Source: Candidatus Tectimicrobiota bacterium
GTDB taxonomy: Bacteria > JACPSX01
Assembly: GCA_016193065.1 (NCBI GenBank)
Contig: JACPSX010000057.1
Location: forward strand, 1 to 7,353
Direction of reading: 5' to 3'
DNA: 7,353 bases
Under the pieces are notes generated by a model. It did no database searches, was not told the DNA's origin, and saw nothing but the letters and a program-made list of their open reading frames with translations. The stretch's first letter is position 1, and each line of letters begins with the position of its first letter. Below, piece after piece: positions 967-7,006 of the stretch. Position numbers and translations under genes: made by a program.

Positions 967-3306
967 TCACTTTTCCTGGGGTGCCCCGGCGGAGATGATC
1001 CGCTGGGCGATGAACCCGGCGATCTCCTCGTGAACCTCCGGACAGTCGACCCCGATGATCACATGCCGCGGTCGCTCGCTCCAGACCAGCTTTTTATCAC
1101 GGATTCTCAACTGGTCATAGACGATCTGTGCGCTCTCTGGCTTCACGGTAGGGTCGCGCCGGGAGTGGAGGATCAGGGTGGGTTGTCTGACTTTGGGGAT
1201 TTCGGTCTGGTAAAATTCCACCAGGCGGTTAAACTGAGCAATTGCCTTGGGAGAAAGGGTGGTGTAGTTCAGGTGGGGATTTTCAGGCTCTGAGTTTACC
1301 TGGCGGGTCACCATTCCCACCAGAGCCGCCAAGCGCAGCCAGGGATTTTGCATCTGAATGGGGGGGGAGACCGCAACCACCCCTTGAACCTTTTCTCCCT
1401 TTCTAGAGGCCAGGAGCAGGGCCAGGGCCGCTCCCGCCGAAAAGCCCGCCACGAACACCCGGGAACAGAAATAGTGCAAACAGCTATAGCCCCAGAGTGT
1501 CGAATCGTACCAGTCTTCCCACAATCTCTCCTCCAGATCCGCCGGCGAGGTGCCGTGGCCGCGCAGCCGCACTCCGTACACCGTGTATCCCCGGGCATGA
1601 AGGTCCCGCCCCAGGGGTTTGGTTTCTTCGGGGGAAGCCGAAAACCCGTGGATCAGCAAAATTCCCGTTTCTCCTTCCCGTGTCCCGCGCCGGCCCCGGT
1701 AGAAGAAAGGGACTCCCAGACCGTGGGGTTTGGATTCAGCCAGACGGTCTGAGTGAGCCGCAGTGCTTTGCCACTCTTTCTCGTAGACCTGCAAATCTCC
1801 CGTGAAGAGGGCATCGGCCAGATCTGGCCCCGTGAATCTCCGGGGTGACTTGATTTGCCGGGCAACTGCCTCTGTTACCGTGGTAAGGGGCTGGACCTCG
1901 TTGGAGTAGACCTGCAGGATGTTTTCGAGACGCATCCGGCCGAAAGCCGGGGCCTGCCGGATCTTCTCTTCATTGAATCGAATCGTATCCTCTGTTTGCT
2001 CGATGAGACCGGCGTGCTCCAGGCGCTGCAGGAGGTGGGTGAATTTCGGCTGCCCGTCTTCCGTGAGAAGGGAGTAGAGCGCTGAGGGATCCAGGAGATC
2101 GGGGTGGAGATGAATGTCGGGCTCCTGGCAAACCGTTTCGGCAATTGCGTAGACGGTATGGCGGAGCTGGGAGACAGGCAATCCGGGAAGTCCCCGGGAC
2201 ACGACGGATTGCCGGATGGCTTCGCAGGTCAGATGGTCCAGATTCACGGTGGTCAGGGAGTAGATCTGCTTCATGTAGCGCTCGGTAATCTGGCGGGCCC
2301 GGGTCTTTATCCTGCGGTCGCTTTCCAGGAGCCATTTTTCCAGCAGGTGTCCGTAGGGGTGCAGGATCTTGCTGTTCTTCAACGCTTCAAAGAGTTTGAT
2401 CAGAGGGGGGTGATACCCCGTATCGAACCGGCGCCGGTCGATCTGCTGAAAGCCCGCCTCGACGATCAGAGGGTCACCTACCCGGATATCAATCTCGATT
2501 CCGCCCAGGAGCATCGAGCCTTCCACGGCGATTTCCTCCAGCAGGCGCTCCCCTCCGTTTCGGGACAGAAAATCGTGCGGCAGCCGCTGGGCCAGTTGCT
2601 GGAAGATTTTCTCCGAGCCCCGCAGCGGGTAGTAGGTGACGTTGACCGGCAGGAGGCACGTGATCCGCCGGGTGATCGCGTTCAAGTCGTCATGGGTGCA
2701 GTGCTCGAGGCCCAGGCGCCGGCAGACGGTCTCGATCTCGCCCCGGTCTCGATCCATGGCGCGGCGCAGGTTGTTCTTGTAGCGCTGCACCAGGAGGGCC
2801 AGTACGGCGGCTCCGGAGTGGGGCGGGCGCCGGATCCCGTCGTTATAAACCTGCAATTTTCCCCGCTCCATGACCTTGCGGTCCTTGACCATGATCCCCT
2901 CGGGAAAGATGAGCCACCAGCCCCCTTGCAGGATATCCCGGGCGATCAGCTCATATTTGCCCGGCGTGTTTGTGGGCACGGCCCCGATGCTTTTTAAATA
3001 GTCTCCAAAAAATCGGTTCTGGAAGAACGAGTAATGGGCCAGGCTCCTGAGCTTCACCCGGGTCTGCCGGTAAAAAATGTAGGGGAGCAGGAAGGTCTCG
3101 AAGCGGGTGAAGTGGTTGGCGATGACGATTCCGCCCCCGGCCCAGACCTGGTCCGTCAGGTTATGGACCCGCACCGAGACCTTTAGATTCTTCAGGAGTT
3201 GGTCAAGGAAGAACCGGGTCAGCTTGTGGTTTCGCAGGTTGAAAGAGGGCAAGTCCGCAACAGGCTGCGGGGGGGAAGTGGAAATGGCGTCTTCCTCTTT
3301 CATCAT
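967..3306 (-). CDS. PlsC-type acyltransferase fused to alpha/beta hydrolase
   Basis: A 779-residue protein with two enzyme halves. Residues about 35-300 are a glycerophospholipid acyltransferase (PlsC/PlsB type): motif I is NHFTRFE at 64-70 and the second conserved block is FPEG at 134-137. The usual H-x4-D is H65-x4-E70 here, an unusual change at the catalytic acidic residue. Residues about 340-500 are of unknown fold and helical in look; MRLENILQVYSN (458-469) loosely recalls the C-terminal region of PlsB-like acyltransferases. Residues about 545-770 are an alpha/beta hydrolase of the esterase/monoacylglycerol-lipase kind: oxyanion HG at 553-554, nucleophile elbow GFSAG with S623, acid D718 and H748, so the triad looks complete. 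No signal peptide or clear membrane segment is seen. It probably acts on acyl chains of membrane lipids at the inner membrane, with the hydrolase releasing or supplying an acyl group; the substrate is unknown. The start has two adjacent ATGs and only a distant GGAG, so the N-terminus is less sure than the frame. Confidence 0.88.
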   Translation of the reverse strand: MMKEEDAISTSPPQPVADLPSFNLRNHKLTRFFLDQLLKNLKVSVRVHNLTDQVWAGGGIVIANHFTRFETFLLPYIFYRQTRVKLRSLAHYSFFQNRFFGDYLKSIGAVPTNTPGKYELIARDILQGGWWLIFPEGIMVKDRKVMERGKLQVYNDGIRRPPHSGAAVLALLVQRYKNNLRRAMDRDRGEIETVCRRLGLEHCTHDDLNAITRRITCLLPVNVTYYPLRGSEKIFQQLAQRLPHDFLSRNGGERLLEEIAVEGSMLLGGIEIDIRVGDPLIVEAGFQQIDRRRFDTGYHPPLIKLFEALKNSKILHPYGHLLEKWLLESDRRIKTRARQITERYMKQIYSLTTVNLDHLTCEAIRQSVVSRGLPGLPVSQLRHTVYAIAETVCQEPDIHLHPDLLDPSALYSLLTEDGQPKFTHLLQRLEHAGLIEQTEDTIRFNEEKIRQAPAFGRMRLENILQVYSNEVQPLTTVTEAVARQIKSPRRFTGPDLADALFTGDLQVYEKEWQSTAAHSDRLAESKPHGLGVPFFYRGRRGTREGETGILLIHGFSASPEETKPLGRDLHARGYTVYGVRLRGHGTSPADLEERLWEDWYDSTLWGYSCLHYFCSRVFVAGFSAGAALALLLASRKGEKVQGVVAVSPPIQMQNPWLRLAALVGMVTRQVNSEPENPHLNYTTLSPKAIAQFNRLVEFYQTEIPKVRQPTLILHSRRDPTVKPESAQIVYDQLRIRDKKLVWSERPRHVIIGVDCPEVHEEIAGFIAQRIISAGAPQEK

Positions 3307-3569: not shown

Positions 3570-3989
3570 ATGAGGATTTCCACGAAGGGGGAGTACGGAC
3601 TCAAGGCGATGCTCGATCTTGCCCTTCATCATGACCGGGTTCCGATCCAGATCCGGGAAGTTGCCGAGCGCCAGGGAATCCCCCAGCGTTATCTGGAACA
3701 ACTTCTCCTCAGGTTGCGTCAGGAAGGACTGGTGGTTAGCCAGCGAGGGGCTGCGGGGGGTTACGGTCTGTCGCGACCCCCAGGCCGGATCACGGTTGCC
3801 GAGATCATCGCAGCCCTGGAAGGCCCCATTCGCATTGTGACCCACAAAAAGGGGGGCAGCCGGGACGTGTTCAGCGCTCTATGGGAAGATGTCGAGGGCG
3901 CCATCGGCGACGTGCTCAGGATCTCTCTAGAGGACTTGATCGCTCGCAAGGCGAAACTGGAGAGAGGAGCCATGGTCTACCACATCTAA
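3570..3989 (+). CDS. Rrf2-family regulator, cysteine-free (CymR-like)
   Basis: A 139-residue Rrf2 regulator of normal family length. MRISTKGEYGLKAM opens the winged helix; IQIREVAERQGIPQRYLEQLL holds the helix-turn-helix, and the wing is SQRGAAGGYGLSR, all classic family motifs. Residues about 80-139 form the usual dimerisation helix and tail. There is no cysteine anywhere, so it cannot hold the Fe-S cluster of IscR, NsrR or RsrR. In that it resembles CymR of Firmicutes, which represses cysteine-synthesis genes and senses cysteine status through a complex with CysK. Beside cysK and a sulfur-carrier cluster, control of sulfur metabolism is a reasonable inference, though direct homology to CymR within the family is untested. 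The start has GGAGG at 3561-3565, 4 nt before the ATG. It converges with the NIL gene, so it is not in that operon. Confidence 0.9.
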   Translation: MRISTKGEYGLKAMLDLALHHDRVPIQIREVAERQGIPQRYLEQLLLRLRQEGLVVSQRGAAGGYGLSRPPGRITVAEIIAALEGPIRIVTHKKGGSRDVFSALWEDVEGAIGDVLRISLEDLIARKAKLERGAMVYHI

Positions 3990-4028
3990 GGGCTAAGAGT
4001 TTAGAGCTGAGAGCTAAGCGCTAAGCGC
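3986..4028. repeat. degenerate CTAAG / GAGCT repeat between convergent genes
   Basis: CTAAG occurs four times (3986, 3993, 4014, 4021), mixed with variants such as TTTAGAG and GCTGAGAG. The stretch begins within the Rrf2 stop codon and fills most of the 48-bp gap to the NIL stop. It ends in GCGC-TAA-GCGC (4018-4028), an imperfect hairpin, with AAAAA after it on the plus strand, so it is not a typical terminator. It looks like a decayed short tandem repeat. Confidence 0.55.
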
Positions 4029-4037
4029 AAAAACTTC

Positions 4038-4277
4038 CTATTCGATTACATCTCCCTCGATCGGGTCGACCCGGACGCCCCAGCTTCTCAGCGTGTCCAC
4101 AGCCTTTTCGATCTCCCTGCTGTCGCCGCTGATCTCGAGGTCGGCCCAGCCTTCCTCGAGGGTGATGTTGGCCCGACGGATGTTGGTGACGATGTCAAAG
4201 GCGTGGCCGATTTCGTGGATAATCGGCCGTTTGACGATCTCAGGAGGAAATCGCAGGTGAACACGCAGGGTCGTCAC
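4038..4277 (-). CDS. NIL-domain protein
   Basis: A 79-residue protein that is essentially one NIL domain (an ACT-like ferredoxin fold): VTTLRVHLRFPPE, then IVKRPIIHEIGHAFDIV, RRANITLEEGWADLEISG and a closing helix and strand. NIL domains are known at the C-terminus of the methionine transporter ATPase MetN, where they bind methionine, and in proteins tied to homocysteine synthesis in anaerobes. Here it stands alone, with no cysteine and no ferredoxin part. The start is GTG at 4277, chosen because AGGAGG (4287-4282) lies 4 nt upstream; an ATG at 4370 in the same frame would add 31 low-complexity residues and run into the upstream gene. It is the last gene of the thrC-like/MoaD-like operon, 46 nt after the carrier. 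A role in sensing or handling methionine or homocysteine is inference. Confidence 0.85.
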   Translation of the reverse strand: MTTLRVHLRFPPEIVKRPIIHEIGHAFDIVTNIRRANITLEEGWADLEISGDSREIEKAVDTLRSWGVRVDPIEGDVIE

Positions 4278-4323
4278 TTTACCTCCTGTTCTGGCCTTCT
4301 CCGGGGCTGCAGCGGCCCGCGCT

Positions 4324-4608
4324 TTATGCCCGTTTCCCTCCGGCAATTGCCGGCACGATCGAGATTTCATCCCCTTCCTTGACTTTCGTGCTCTCCCCCT
4401 GCAGGAAGCGGATGTCCTCGTCGTTGACGTAGATATTGATGAAACGGCGTAGGGTTCCCGACTCGTCGTAAAGTCTCTCGCGCACGCCCTTATACTGCTC
4501 CTCGAGGTTGGCGAGAACCTCTTTTACGTTGTTTCCCGAAGCGTTCACCTCACCGCGGTTGCCCGTCAGTTTTTGCAATGGCGTTGGAACTCGCACCAAA
4601 ATGGGCAT
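4324..4608 (-). CDS. MoaD/ThiS-like sulfur carrier with C-terminal tail
   Basis: A 94-residue ubiquitin-like protein. It has the beta-grasp pattern of MoaD/ThiS/CysO: MPILVRVPTPLQKLTG, the helix NNVKEVLANLEEQY, FINIYVNDEDIRFL, and the end KEGDEISIVPAIAGG. In this family the last glycine is adenylated by an E1-like enzyme and converted to a thiocarboxylate that gives sulfur to molybdopterin, thiazole or amino-acid synthesis. Here G90-G91 are followed by K92-R93-A94 before the TAA, so the diglycine is not terminal and would need trimming. Such tails are known in QbsE and in the homocysteine carrier HcyS, each with a metalloprotease partner. The start is ATG at 4608, one base after the thrC-like stop; AAGGAGG inside the last codons of that gene is well placed, so translation is probably coupled. 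An in-frame ATG at 4629 would add 7 residues and overlap that ribosome site. Confidence 0.9.
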   Translation of the reverse strand: MPILVRVPTPLQKLTGNRGEVNASGNNVKEVLANLEEQYKGVRERLYDESGTLRRFINIYVNDEDIRFLQGESTKVKEGDEISIVPAIAGGKRA

Positions 4609-4609
4609 A

Positions 4610-5848
4610 TTATTTACCCTCCTTTCCATTAAACAGATCCTGGAACGCGCTCAAGCGGGGATCTATGAGAATTGGAGAACCAACGTCGCCCATCACCGCT
4701 TCTTGAGTCTTCAACCCGTTGCCCGTAATGGCCAGGACAGTGACATCATCGGGTTGGATCCGACCCTGAGCGACAAGCTTGCGGGCAACACCGAGGGTCA
4801 CTCCCCCTGCCGTCTCCGCGAAGATTCCTTCGGTCTGGGCCAGGAGCTTCATGCATTCCACGATCTCATCGTCCGCGACGTCTTCTCCATAACCACCGCT
4901 TTCCTTGACCGTCTTGATACCGTAATAACCGTCCGCCGGGTTGCCGATGGCGATCGATTTGGCAATGGTATTCGGGATGACCGGCTTGATGAAGTCGCGA
5001 TTTTCCTTAATCGCGGTCGTAACTGGAGCACAGCCGCTGGCCTGGGCAGCATGGATTTTCGTCTTCACCTCGTCGATGAGACCCAGATGGGCGAATTCGT
5101 TAAAGGCCTTCCAGACCTTGGTGATGAGAGAACTTCCCGCCACGGGGATGACGACGTGATCCGGGGCTTTCCACCCCAGTTGCTCGGCGATCTCGTAGCC
5201 GAACGTTTTGGAGCCGTCTCCGTAGAAGGGCCGGATCGTGATGTTTACGAAGGCCCAGGGGAAATTGGCGGCAATCTCGCTGCACAGGCGGTTCACTTCA
5301 TCGTACACGCCCCGGATCCCGACCAGCGTGGTTCCGTAGATCAGCGTGCCGACGACTTTGGTCATTTCAATGTCGGCGGGGATGAAGATGTAACTCTTGA
5401 GGCCGGCTTCAGCGGCGTGAGCGGCCACGGAATTGGCGAGATTCCCCGTGGAGGCACAAGCCACCGTGTCGTAATTGAATTCTTTGGCTTTACTGACTGC
5501 CACCGCCACCACCCGGTCTTTGAAAGAAAGGGTCGGGTGGTTCACGCAGTCGTTTTTGATGTAGAGATTATTGAGGCCCATGACCTTGCCGAGGCGTTTC
5601 GCCTTGATGAGGGGGGTGAAACCGACCTGTAGCCCCACCGTGGGGTCCCCGTCTAGAGGAAGGAGAGGCTGATAGCGCCACATACTCCTGGGACCGCGGG
5701 CGATCGTCTCCCGGCTTAAAACCCGGCGGATCTGCTCGTAATCGTAGACAATTTCCAAGGGGCCAAAACAAAATTCGCAGACGTGCAGTGGCTCTTTCGG
5801 GTATTGCCGCCCGCACTCACGGCACTGAAGTCCCAGAACGTATCCCAT
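4610..5848 (-). CDS. thrC: Threonine synthase-like PLP enzyme, zinc-ribbon type
   Basis: A 412-residue fold-type II PLP enzyme. An N-terminal zinc ribbon has C9, C12, C24 and C27. HPTLSFKDR (104-112) carries the PLP lysine K110, with ASTGN (132-136) near the cofactor and the glycine-rich AETAGG at 344-349. The C-terminal TGNGLKT (375-381) replaces the TGxGLKD usual in threonine synthases. Classical threonine synthase turns O-phosphohomoserine into threonine and phosphate in the cytoplasm. The carrier gene starts one base after this stop and a NIL gene follows. A role in a sulfur-accepting reaction, for example on O-phosphohomoserine to give homocysteine, is therefore possible but not shown, and a plain threonine synthase remains the default reading. 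The start is ATG at 5848, with AAGGA (5863-5859) 10 nt upstream. Just before that lies a terminator-like hairpin. Symbol given for family; true function uncertain. Confidence 0.88.
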   Translation of the reverse strand: MGYVLGLQCRECGRQYPKEPLHVCEFCFGPLEIVYDYEQIRRVLSRETIARGPRSMWRYQPLLPLDGDPTVGLQVGFTPLIKAKRLGKVMGLNNLYIKNDCVNHPTLSFKDRVVAVAVSKAKEFNYDTVACASTGNLANSVAAHAAEAGLKSYIFIPADIEMTKVVGTLIYGTTLVGIRGVYDEVNRLCSEIAANFPWAFVNITIRPFYGDGSKTFGYEIAEQLGWKAPDHVVIPVAGSSLITKVWKAFNEFAHLGLIDEVKTKIHAAQASGCAPVTTAIKENRDFIKPVIPNTIAKSIAIGNPADGYYGIKTVKESGGYGEDVADDEIVECMKLLAQTEGIFAETAGGVTLGVARKLVAQGRIQPDDVTVLAITGNGLKTQEAVMGDVGSPILIDPRLSAFQDLFNGKEGK

Positions 5849-5978: not shown

Positions 5979-6086
5979 CTTGTGCCGTTCCAACCGAATG
6001 CGCTGAATTTGAGCAGCATGCCTTTCCGCAAAGATTGCAACCGTAGGGAACGAATCAGTTGGTACAAATAGTTGGAACGGTACTAG
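5979..6086. repeat. 16-bp inverted repeat spaced by 76 bp after cysK
   Basis: CCGTTCCAAC (5985-5994) and GTTGGAACGG (6071-6080) are perfect 10-bp inverted copies. Extending outward, 5979-5994 and 6071-6086 match at 14 of 16 positions. The right arm covers the cysK stop codon. The 76-bp interior has no gene and no obvious target-site duplication flanks it. It could be a small MITE-like insertion, a long-loop RNA structure between cysK and the thrC-like gene, or a pair of protein sites. Confidence 0.6.
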
Positions 6087-7006
6087 TCGAACAGGGCGGT
6101 GCTGAGATAGCGCGAGTTCGCGTCGGCAAACAGCGTGACCACCGTCTTGCCCGCGCCCAGGGAGCGCGCCACCTGCACGGCCGCGCAGCAAGCAGCCCCG
6201 GAGGAGATCCCGACCGCAACCCCCTCTTCCTGCGCGAGCTTGCGGGCCCAGGTGAAGGCTTCCTCATCGCTGACGGGGATCACCTCGTCGATGATGTCCC
6301 GGTTCAAGATCCGGGGGATGAACCCGGCGCCGATGCCCTGGATCTGGTGGGGTCCCGGCGCCTTGCCTGATAGCACCGCCGAGGTGGATGGTTCAACGGC
6401 CACAATTTTAATCTGGGGGTACGCCTTCTTGAAAACTTCCCCTAACCCGGTGATCGTGCCGCCCGTGCCAACGCCGACCACCAGAGCATCCACGGGCCGG
6501 CCCTGCATGCTCTCGATGATCTCCGGACCCGTCGTGCGGCGGTGCACTTCCGGGTTGGCCGGGTTATTAAACTGCTGGGGCATGTAGTAGTCCGGGTGCA
6601 GCGCCACGAGGGCTTCCGCCTTTTCCACAGCTCCCTGCATCCCCCAGTCCGCCGGGGTTAGAATCACTTCCGTGCCGTAGGCCTCCAGGAGTTTTTGGCG
6701 CTCGTAGCTCATCCCCTGGCAGAGCACCACGATCACCCGATAGTTCCTGGCGGCCCCGATCATGGCGAGTCCCAGGCCGGTATTGCCGCTGGTGGGCTCG
6801 ATGATCGTTGCCCCTGGTTGCAAGAGCCCCTGCCGCTCCGCCTCGTCAATCATGGCCAAGGCGATGCGGTCTTTCACGCTGCCCCCAGGGTTAAAAAACT
6901 CCATTTTTGCAAGGAGATCGGCGGAATCGGCCGGAAGGATCCGGCGGATTTTCAGGAGAGGAGTACCGCCCACCAGCTTCTCAACGCTATCCGCATAGGA
7001 ACCCAT
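6083..7006 (-). CDS. cysK: Cysteine synthase (O-acetylserine sulfhydrylase)
   Basis: A 307-residue fold-type II PLP enzyme of the usual CysK length. It makes L-cysteine from O-acetylserine and sulfide in the cytoplasm. NPGGSVKDR (39-47) carries the PLP lysine K45; TSGNTG (72-77) binds substrate; GTGGTITG (180-187) holds the cofactor phosphate; PGPHQIQGIGAGFIP (217-231) is the typical acetylserine-type block; GISSGA (266-271) includes the serine facing the pyridine nitrogen. The tail reads FADANSRYLST rather than the common PxSGERYLST. The acetylserine-type block argues against a phosphoserine enzyme of the CysM/CysO kind. The start is ATG at 7006, with AAGGAG (7017-7012) 5 nt upstream. An in-frame TTG at 7105 would start inside the -35 hexamer, so it is rejected. 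The thrC-like gene lies downstream on the same strand after 234 bp, probably a separate unit. Confidence 0.93.
   Translation of the reverse strand: MGSYADSVEKLVGGTPLLKIRRILPADSADLLAKMEFFNPGGSVKDRIALAMIDEAERQGLLQPGATIIEPTSGNTGLGLAMIGAARNYRVIVVLCQGMSYERQKLLEAYGTEVILTPADWGMQGAVEKAEALVALHPDYYMPQQFNNPANPEVHRRTTGPEIIESMQGRPVDALVVGVGTGGTITGLGEVFKKAYPQIKIVAVEPSTSAVLSGKAPGPHQIQGIGAGFIPRILNRDIIDEVIPVSDEEAFTWARKLAQEEGVAVGISSGAACCAAVQVARSLGAGKTVVTLFADANSRYLSTALFD

Follow-up and report, generated by a model that had tools for sequence, protein, structure and literature searches.

Hasebe and colleagues reportedly demonstrated in 2024 that MetM/MetO of Streptomyces form homocysteine from O-phosphohomoserine (OPHS), and Krishnamoorthy and Begley are said to have described in 2011, for HcyS/HcyD/HcyF of Wolinella succinogenes, a carrier thiocarboxylate acting as the sulfur donor for homocysteine. 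The roles of MetM and its carrier MetO from the Streptomyces study (Hasebe, Adachi, Maruyama, Hamano 2024, Appl Environ Microbiol 90:e01247-24), a SAM riboswitch for Streptomyces metM and the presence of MetM homologs in cyanobacteria are documented in PMC12172450. One of these, the ThrC of Microcystis aeruginosa, is 51.6% identical to S. albulus MetM and has an adjacent metO-like gene (PMC12172450). In vitro, it forms threonine from OPHS and also acts as a threonine deaminase, and the authors doubt that it fills the full MetM role in their cells (PMC12172450). A further homocysteine route, involving DUF39 and a NIL/ferredoxin protein, is known from Desulfovibrio and Methanosarcina (PMC5764234).

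Here we analyze a window of 7,353 nucleotides (the whole stretch of DNA under study) from a Candidatus Tectimicrobiota bacterium, which very probably encodes, judging from its sequence, an operon of the MetM/MetO type in a NIL-bearing form. The features shared with MetM/MetO of S. albulus are a ThrC-like PLP enzyme, an adjacent sulfur carrier and, by prediction for the window, homocysteine formation from OPHS. The window differs in having a NIL gene and a carrier ending in GG-KRA, and its relatives in fusing the carrier to NIL and in having JAMM genes; the SAM riboswitch found upstream in Streptomyces and in many window relatives is, in contrast, missing from the window. A ThrC-like partner for a sulfur carrier had been considered new in the original prediction, a claim superseded by the 2024 publication of MetM/MetO (Hasebe et al., discussed in PMC12172450). 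What looks additional to MetM/MetO is the NIL partner, the carrier-NIL fusion accompanied by JAMM, and an E1 predicted to contain selenocysteine.

The HcyS system is alike in its protein thiocarboxylate donor, its JAMM-trimmed carrier and its E1-like activation, but its acceptor is handled by a MetY-type fold-I Cys_Met_Meta_PP enzyme, absent from the window genome. In CysO-CysM-Mec of Mycobacterium tuberculosis, CysO is a close relative of the window carrier (3dwg) and its partner is also a fold II PLP enzyme, but CysM acts on O-phosphoserine, whereas the window partner is ThrC-like. The DUF39 route likewise involves a NIL domain in homocysteine synthesis, but it bypasses homoserine, and the window genome lacks DUF39 and has a NIL protein with neither ferredoxin domain nor cysteine.

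Organization of the window locus

Profile searches confirm each of the PLP enzyme, sulfur carrier and NIL genes that had been predicted on the minus strand at 4038-5848. The features of the locus are as follows:

4610..5848, minus strand: ThrC-like (metM-like) gene, from PALP and thrC profiles, orthologs and a clade support of 100
4324..4608, minus strand: MoaD/ThiS-type carrier (metO-like) gene, from ThiS and SAMP1 profiles, CysO relatives in the PDB and a Shine-Dalgarno start
4038..4277, minus strand: NIL-domain protein gene, from PF09383, predicted fold and a NIL gene near the enzyme in at least 65 of 102 loci
6083..7006, minus strand: cysK, cysteine synthase A, from TIGR01139 (428 bits, cut-off 351)
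3570..3989, plus strand, convergent with the operon: Rrf2-family regulator gene, from PF02082 (117 bits)

Two gene starts were corrected from the sequence. The moaD-like gene most likely begins at ATG 4608 (MPILVRV), preceded by a GGAGG located in the final codons of the enzyme gene. For the NIL gene the most likely start is GTG 4277, behind an AGGAGG and 46 bases past moaD. Close coupling of the first two genes, as originally proposed, is plausible given this Shine-Dalgarno sequence and the single base separating the enzyme TAA from ATG 4608, but from that start the genes do not overlap. From the gene spacing, we infer that the trio is co-transcribed.

The cysK reading frame is open to 7105, but the ATG at 7006 provides a better family fit. 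This gene lies upstream of the ThrC-like gene on the same strand, across a 235-base gap, and is perhaps outside the transcript of the trio. Its product scores 428 bits against CysK and 279 bits against CysM, the latter below the cut-off of 394. The nearest named model for the Rrf2 protein is CymR (122 bits, under its cut-off of 195), and the protein is a candidate sulfur regulator; locus L045 likewise has an Rrf2 gene ahead of the enzyme gene. Between the Rrf2 and NIL genes, positions 3990-4032 hold a run of near-repeats of GAGCTAAG/GCTAAGCGC.

The enzyme lacks canonical threonine synthase motifs

The 412-residue enzyme belongs to the fold-type II PLP family, with K110 as the PLP lysine and an N-terminal C9/C12/C24/C27 motif; K110 and all four cysteines are invariant in 22 aligned orthologs. 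It matches PALP (2.6e-67) and the TIGR00260 thrC model (281.6 bits, cut-off 167.1), so that annotation as a threonine synthase is to be expected. Alignment to solved ThrC structures nevertheless revealed that the canonical motifs GSFKDRG, NSxNPxRxEGQKT and PVGNAGN are absent: the first reads LSFKDRV, the second is replaced in the clade enzyme by NITIRPFYGDGSKT and the third reads PVAGSSL, while the stretch VN-SVNPHRLEGQKT corresponds to VNITIRPFYGDGSKT. In this alignment, Ser155, Arg160 and Asn188 of Thermus ThrC are equivalent to Thr204, Tyr209 and Gly238, and its PLP lysine Lys61 to Lys110. The three replaced residues of Thermus ThrC are ones that we take to contact the OPHS phosphate. The replacement motif is itself conserved across 22 relatives, with R206, Y209, G212 and K214 invariant, and most of 43 comparison sequences, including the second ThrC of the window genome, keep the canonical motifs. 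With its OPHS-contact motifs replaced, the enzyme is, on alignment grounds, no ordinary threonine synthase.

A MetM-type clade spans about 18 phyla

To survey relatives we used a 98-genome sample across the domain; the phylum-level set comprised the window's genome only. Enzyme orthologs 52-72% identical were identified in 20 of the 97 other genomes, against next-best matches of at most 42%. In addition, when 84,980 species genomes were scanned for conserved peptides, at least 592 loci matched. The best 80 of these at least 592 loci were taken and encompass Nitrospirota, Nitrospinota, Omnitrophota, Planctomycetota, Poribacteria, Aquificota, Verrucomicrobiota, Chloroflexota, Cyanobacteriota and Actinomycetota, among others.

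A quick maximum-likelihood tree of 99 sequences split 56 clade members from 43 others by a branch with support 100 and length 0.76, and placed cyanobacterial (L137, L139) and actinobacterial (Nonomuraea, L059) sequences inside the window's clade. By record titles, the MetM-type clade spreads over about 18 phyla, cyanobacterial sequences included, whereas the authors describing the Microcystis ThrC lineage saw it in cyanobacteria only (PMC12172450). Streptomyces MetM was absent among the plasmid records searched. The window enzyme thus stands phylogenetically apart from canonical ThrC and has a GlyGly carrier gene directly downstream, as in MetM/MetO. The homocysteine route published for Streptomyces is hence indicated across about 18 phyla, in which the enzyme passes the threonine synthase model. 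Three Aquificaceae loci (L092, L094 and L096, labelled Aquifex aeolicus and Hydrogenobacter) have a MetM-type enzyme, with an adjoining carrier gene in L096.

Conserved gene neighborhood

The neighborhoods of 102 clade loci, window included, were compared after selecting them by enzyme similarity and not by neighbors. Many contigs end early and the counts are therefore lower bounds: on the enzyme strand and no more than a few kilobases away, a MoaD-like gene is present in at least 87 of the 102 loci, a NIL gene in at least 65, a CysK-type gene in at least 47, an E1 gene in at least 46 and a JAMM protease gene in at least 29. In the 43 loci around other ThrC-like genes, no MoaD, NIL or JAMM gene was detected, and E1 in only one. 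With MoaD adjoining the enzyme in 87 of 102 clade loci and in none of 43 non-clade ThrC-like loci, chance does not account for the arrangement of the trio.

In L058, the genes for enzyme and carrier flank one for a GHMP kinase, with a SAM-alpha riboswitch in control, and this homoserine kinase family assignment fits OPHS as the substrate. In several loci NIL sits directly between the enzyme and carrier genes, or lies upstream by one to two genes (L130, L132, L136, L071, L081 and L123), showing that the NIL partner shifts position yet stays in the cluster. Seven Poribacteria loci (L089, L099, L102, L109, L110, L120 and L121), and L050, which groups with them, have the enzyme with no nearby carrier gene; here the carrier gene may lie at another site, or the enzyme may instead work with sulfide. 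In L039 (7563-9475), two rhodanese genes lie between the carrier gene and a second CysK-type gene, and their products are candidate sulfur donors to the carrier.

SAM riboswitches precede the enzyme gene in many relatives

Rfam searches detected a SAM riboswitch 92 nt upstream of the enzyme gene in L039, the closest relative of the window (72% identical), and upstream of the enzyme gene also in L051, L054, L057, Nonomuraea (L059), L118, L090 and L127. A covariance model made from five Rfam-detected riboswitches and run on 100 loci (1.33 Mb) identified a SAM-I riboswitch in 22 loci, in all cases upstream of the enzyme gene and on the same strand, at 38-1033 nt from its start (within 404 nt in 20 of the 22). 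The model returned no SAM riboswitch elsewhere in the 1.33 Mb, and Rfam confirmed three of its new matches. The presence of these elements points to a link between the clade enzyme and methionine.

Neither Rfam, at normal and permissive thresholds, nor the purpose-built model identified a riboswitch in the window. This is not a defining feature of the MetM/MetO type, since the Microcystis gene also lacks a riboswitch (PMC12172450). In the window, it may instead be NIL or the Rrf2 protein that exerts control. The notion of NIL and SAM riboswitches as alternative controls was dropped, since many riboswitch loci also have NIL.

Methionine pathway of the window genome

The window genome (2.9 Mb) is 86% complete, and the absences reported for it are provisional. 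It encodes another ThrC, with canonical motifs, a homoserine kinase ThrB (257 bits, above cut-off) and a homocysteine methyltransferase domain. No B12-activation domain of MetH was detected in this 86% complete genome. The original prediction had named a sole threonine synthase as an objection to its reading, which the additional ThrC removes. Searches of the genome returned no full-length Cys_Met_Meta_PP protein, the family of MetB/MetC/MetY/MetZ (best E 2.3e-8), and no DUF39/HcyBio (PF01837).

Within the 98-genome sample, both other homocysteine routes are missing from 11 of 21 genomes with the clade enzyme and from 12 of 77 without it (Fisher p=0.001), a suggestive difference that favors a homocysteine role, bearing in mind that draft genomes miss genes and that genomes are not independent. 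The MetM-type route is therefore the only one present, of three tested, in 11 of the 98 genomes. A 2018 listing gives Aquifex aeolicus as lacking any known homocysteine route (PMC5764234), and the MetM-type enzyme is a candidate answer for this gap in the Aquificaceae.

Proposed function and alternative explanations

The gene context, the SAM riboswitches of relatives, the loss of ThrC motifs, the second ThrC and the absence of other routes all support the originally proposed action of a ThrC-like enzyme and a thiocarboxylated carrier on phosphohomoserine. We hence consider it highly likely that the window operon directs carrier-dependent homocysteine synthesis from OPHS. The carrier would be cut back to its terminal GlyGly, after which the single ThiF-type E1 of the genome (a rhodanese-E1 fusion) would adenylate it, and thiocarboxylation would follow. 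The ThrC-like enzyme would bind OPHS and eliminate phosphate via PLP, the carrier thiocarboxylate sulfur would be added at the gamma carbon to yield homocysteine, and the latter would then be methylated to methionine. Every chemical step, as well as the role of NIL, is one that we infer.

The main counter-evidence to homocysteine synthesis comes from Microcystis ThrC, which in vitro converts OPHS to threonine and the latter to 2-ketobutyrate (PMC12172450). Together with a thrC profile score above the curated cut-off, these data would fit a divergent threonine synthase or synthase/deaminase, as for this cyanobacterial relative, with the carrier giving its sulfur elsewhere. Such an enzyme is unlikely here: the window genome has another ThrC with canonical motifs, the ThrC contact motifs are lost, and both the SAM riboswitches and the adjoining carrier gene are features of the clade that canonical ThrC does not share.

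Given the resemblance of the carrier to CysO, the cysK gene upstream in the window and the CysK-type genes in at least 47 of 102 loci, it could also be argued that the carrier mainly serves the neighboring cysteine synthase, following CysO-CysM logic, while the product of the ThrC-like enzyme is some other thiol or resembles cysteine. This is very unlikely, since carrier adjacency tracks the ThrC-like gene (87 of 102) and not CysK (47 of 102), the window protein is an ordinary CysK falling under the CysM cut-off, and SAM as the riboswitch ligand points to methionine. Least probable of all, and barely credible, is that the carrier is a molybdopterin-synthase subunit placed here by chance. It does approach the MoaD family model TIGR01687, at 49.0 bits against a cut-off of 49.5, yet the window genome has four other ThiS-family genes, one of them immediately ahead of a reading frame resembling a molybdopterin oxidoreductase (L009), and the carrier-enzyme adjacency is kept in 87 loci. 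Furthermore, no molybdopterin synthase gene lies beside the carrier, a pairing that the original prediction had listed against itself.

The sulfur carrier and its fusion to NIL

The carrier, a small ubiquitin-like protein of 94 residues, ends in AGG-KRA, with a three-residue tail after the GG; the GG is invariant, and the AGG conserved, in 18 aligned carriers. It matches ThiS (2.1e-18) and SAMP1 (61.2 bits, cut-off 60), and its PDB matches are CysO proteins. If it works like other carriers, the KRA tail would need to be removed before activation of the GlyGly end. Despite this tail, no JAMM protein of the Prok-JAB family was detected in the window genome (86% complete).

In nine loci, NIL is fused to the carrier behind its GlyGly. 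A JAMM gene lies nearby in seven of these nine and in 21 of 77 unfused loci (p=0.005). JAMM is associated with the fusion only, and short carrier tails present no such association. This fits a protease that parts the carrier from NIL or trims the carrier. The Thermus thermophilus 'MoaD related protein' (1v8c, 168 aa) aligns near full length with a model of the fused carrier-NIL protein, at an rmsd of 12.5, and may be the structure of a related fusion.

The NIL protein as a putative methionine-binding partner

The C2 domain of the methionine importer subunit MetN binds methionine and shuts the transporter. The 79-residue NIL protein of the window (PF09383, 43.4 bits, cut-off 24) has a predicted ferredoxin-like fold (pLDDT 85.8) whose top match is this domain, with a TM of 0.84 and an rmsd of 1.2; the matched MetN entries include a SeMet soak. 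In MetNI importers the NIL domain is fused to the ATPase, whereas window-type NIL proteins are free-standing or fused to a sulfur carrier. The literature found describes no role for NIL in a MetM/MetO-type operon.

On the basis of the predicted fold, methionine or homocysteine is the most likely ligand of NIL, which would either regulate the pair of enzyme and carrier or keep the two together, and which provides an additional, testable candidate regulatory subunit. Whether it would be a methionine sensor or a docking part is, from the model, about evenly balanced. A cysteine persulfide relay is unlikely, since the window NIL has no cysteine, cysteines are likewise absent from 54 of 71 NIL sequences and no column of the 71 presents a conserved one. 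A combined scheme, in which NIL senses methionine and gates sulfur delivery at the carrier-enzyme complex, fused NIL caps the carrier GlyGly until JAMM cuts, and the E1 of the window genome activates the carrier with selenocysteine at its conserved cysteine, is tentative, and we hold it to be somewhat less probable than its negation.

A predicted selenocysteine-containing E1

The single ThiF-family protein found in the window genome is the rhodanese-E1 fusion, encoded on another contig (L004, contig C87). At L004:2029, its frame is broken by one TGA at a conserved cysteine (VPS-U-SEAGVLG, against VPSCQEAGVLG in relatives), and the family C-terminus continues past it. A hairpin after this TGA had a z of -1.9 against shuffles in one fold but was not more stable in two others, and a SECIS is only suggested. 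The genome encodes a full SelB (370 bits, above cut-off).

The same TGA occurs independently in a Syntrophaceae locus (L067:10782), where the E1 lies within an enzyme-carrier-NIL-JAMM-cysK operon, and this genome also has SelB. Both proteins are predicted from sequence to be selenocysteine-containing E1 enzymes. MoeB proteins with Sec form an established selenoprotein family, which came to light in the Sargasso Sea and was attributed a role in molybdopterin synthesis (PMC1088965; PMC13188914), and the L067 operon suggests that some 'MoeB' selenoproteins serve homocysteine/methionine rather than molybdopterin synthesis.

Elsewhere in the window, positions 967-3306 of the minus strand encode a 779-residue protein that joins acyltransferase and alpha/beta hydrolase domains, an unusual pairing.
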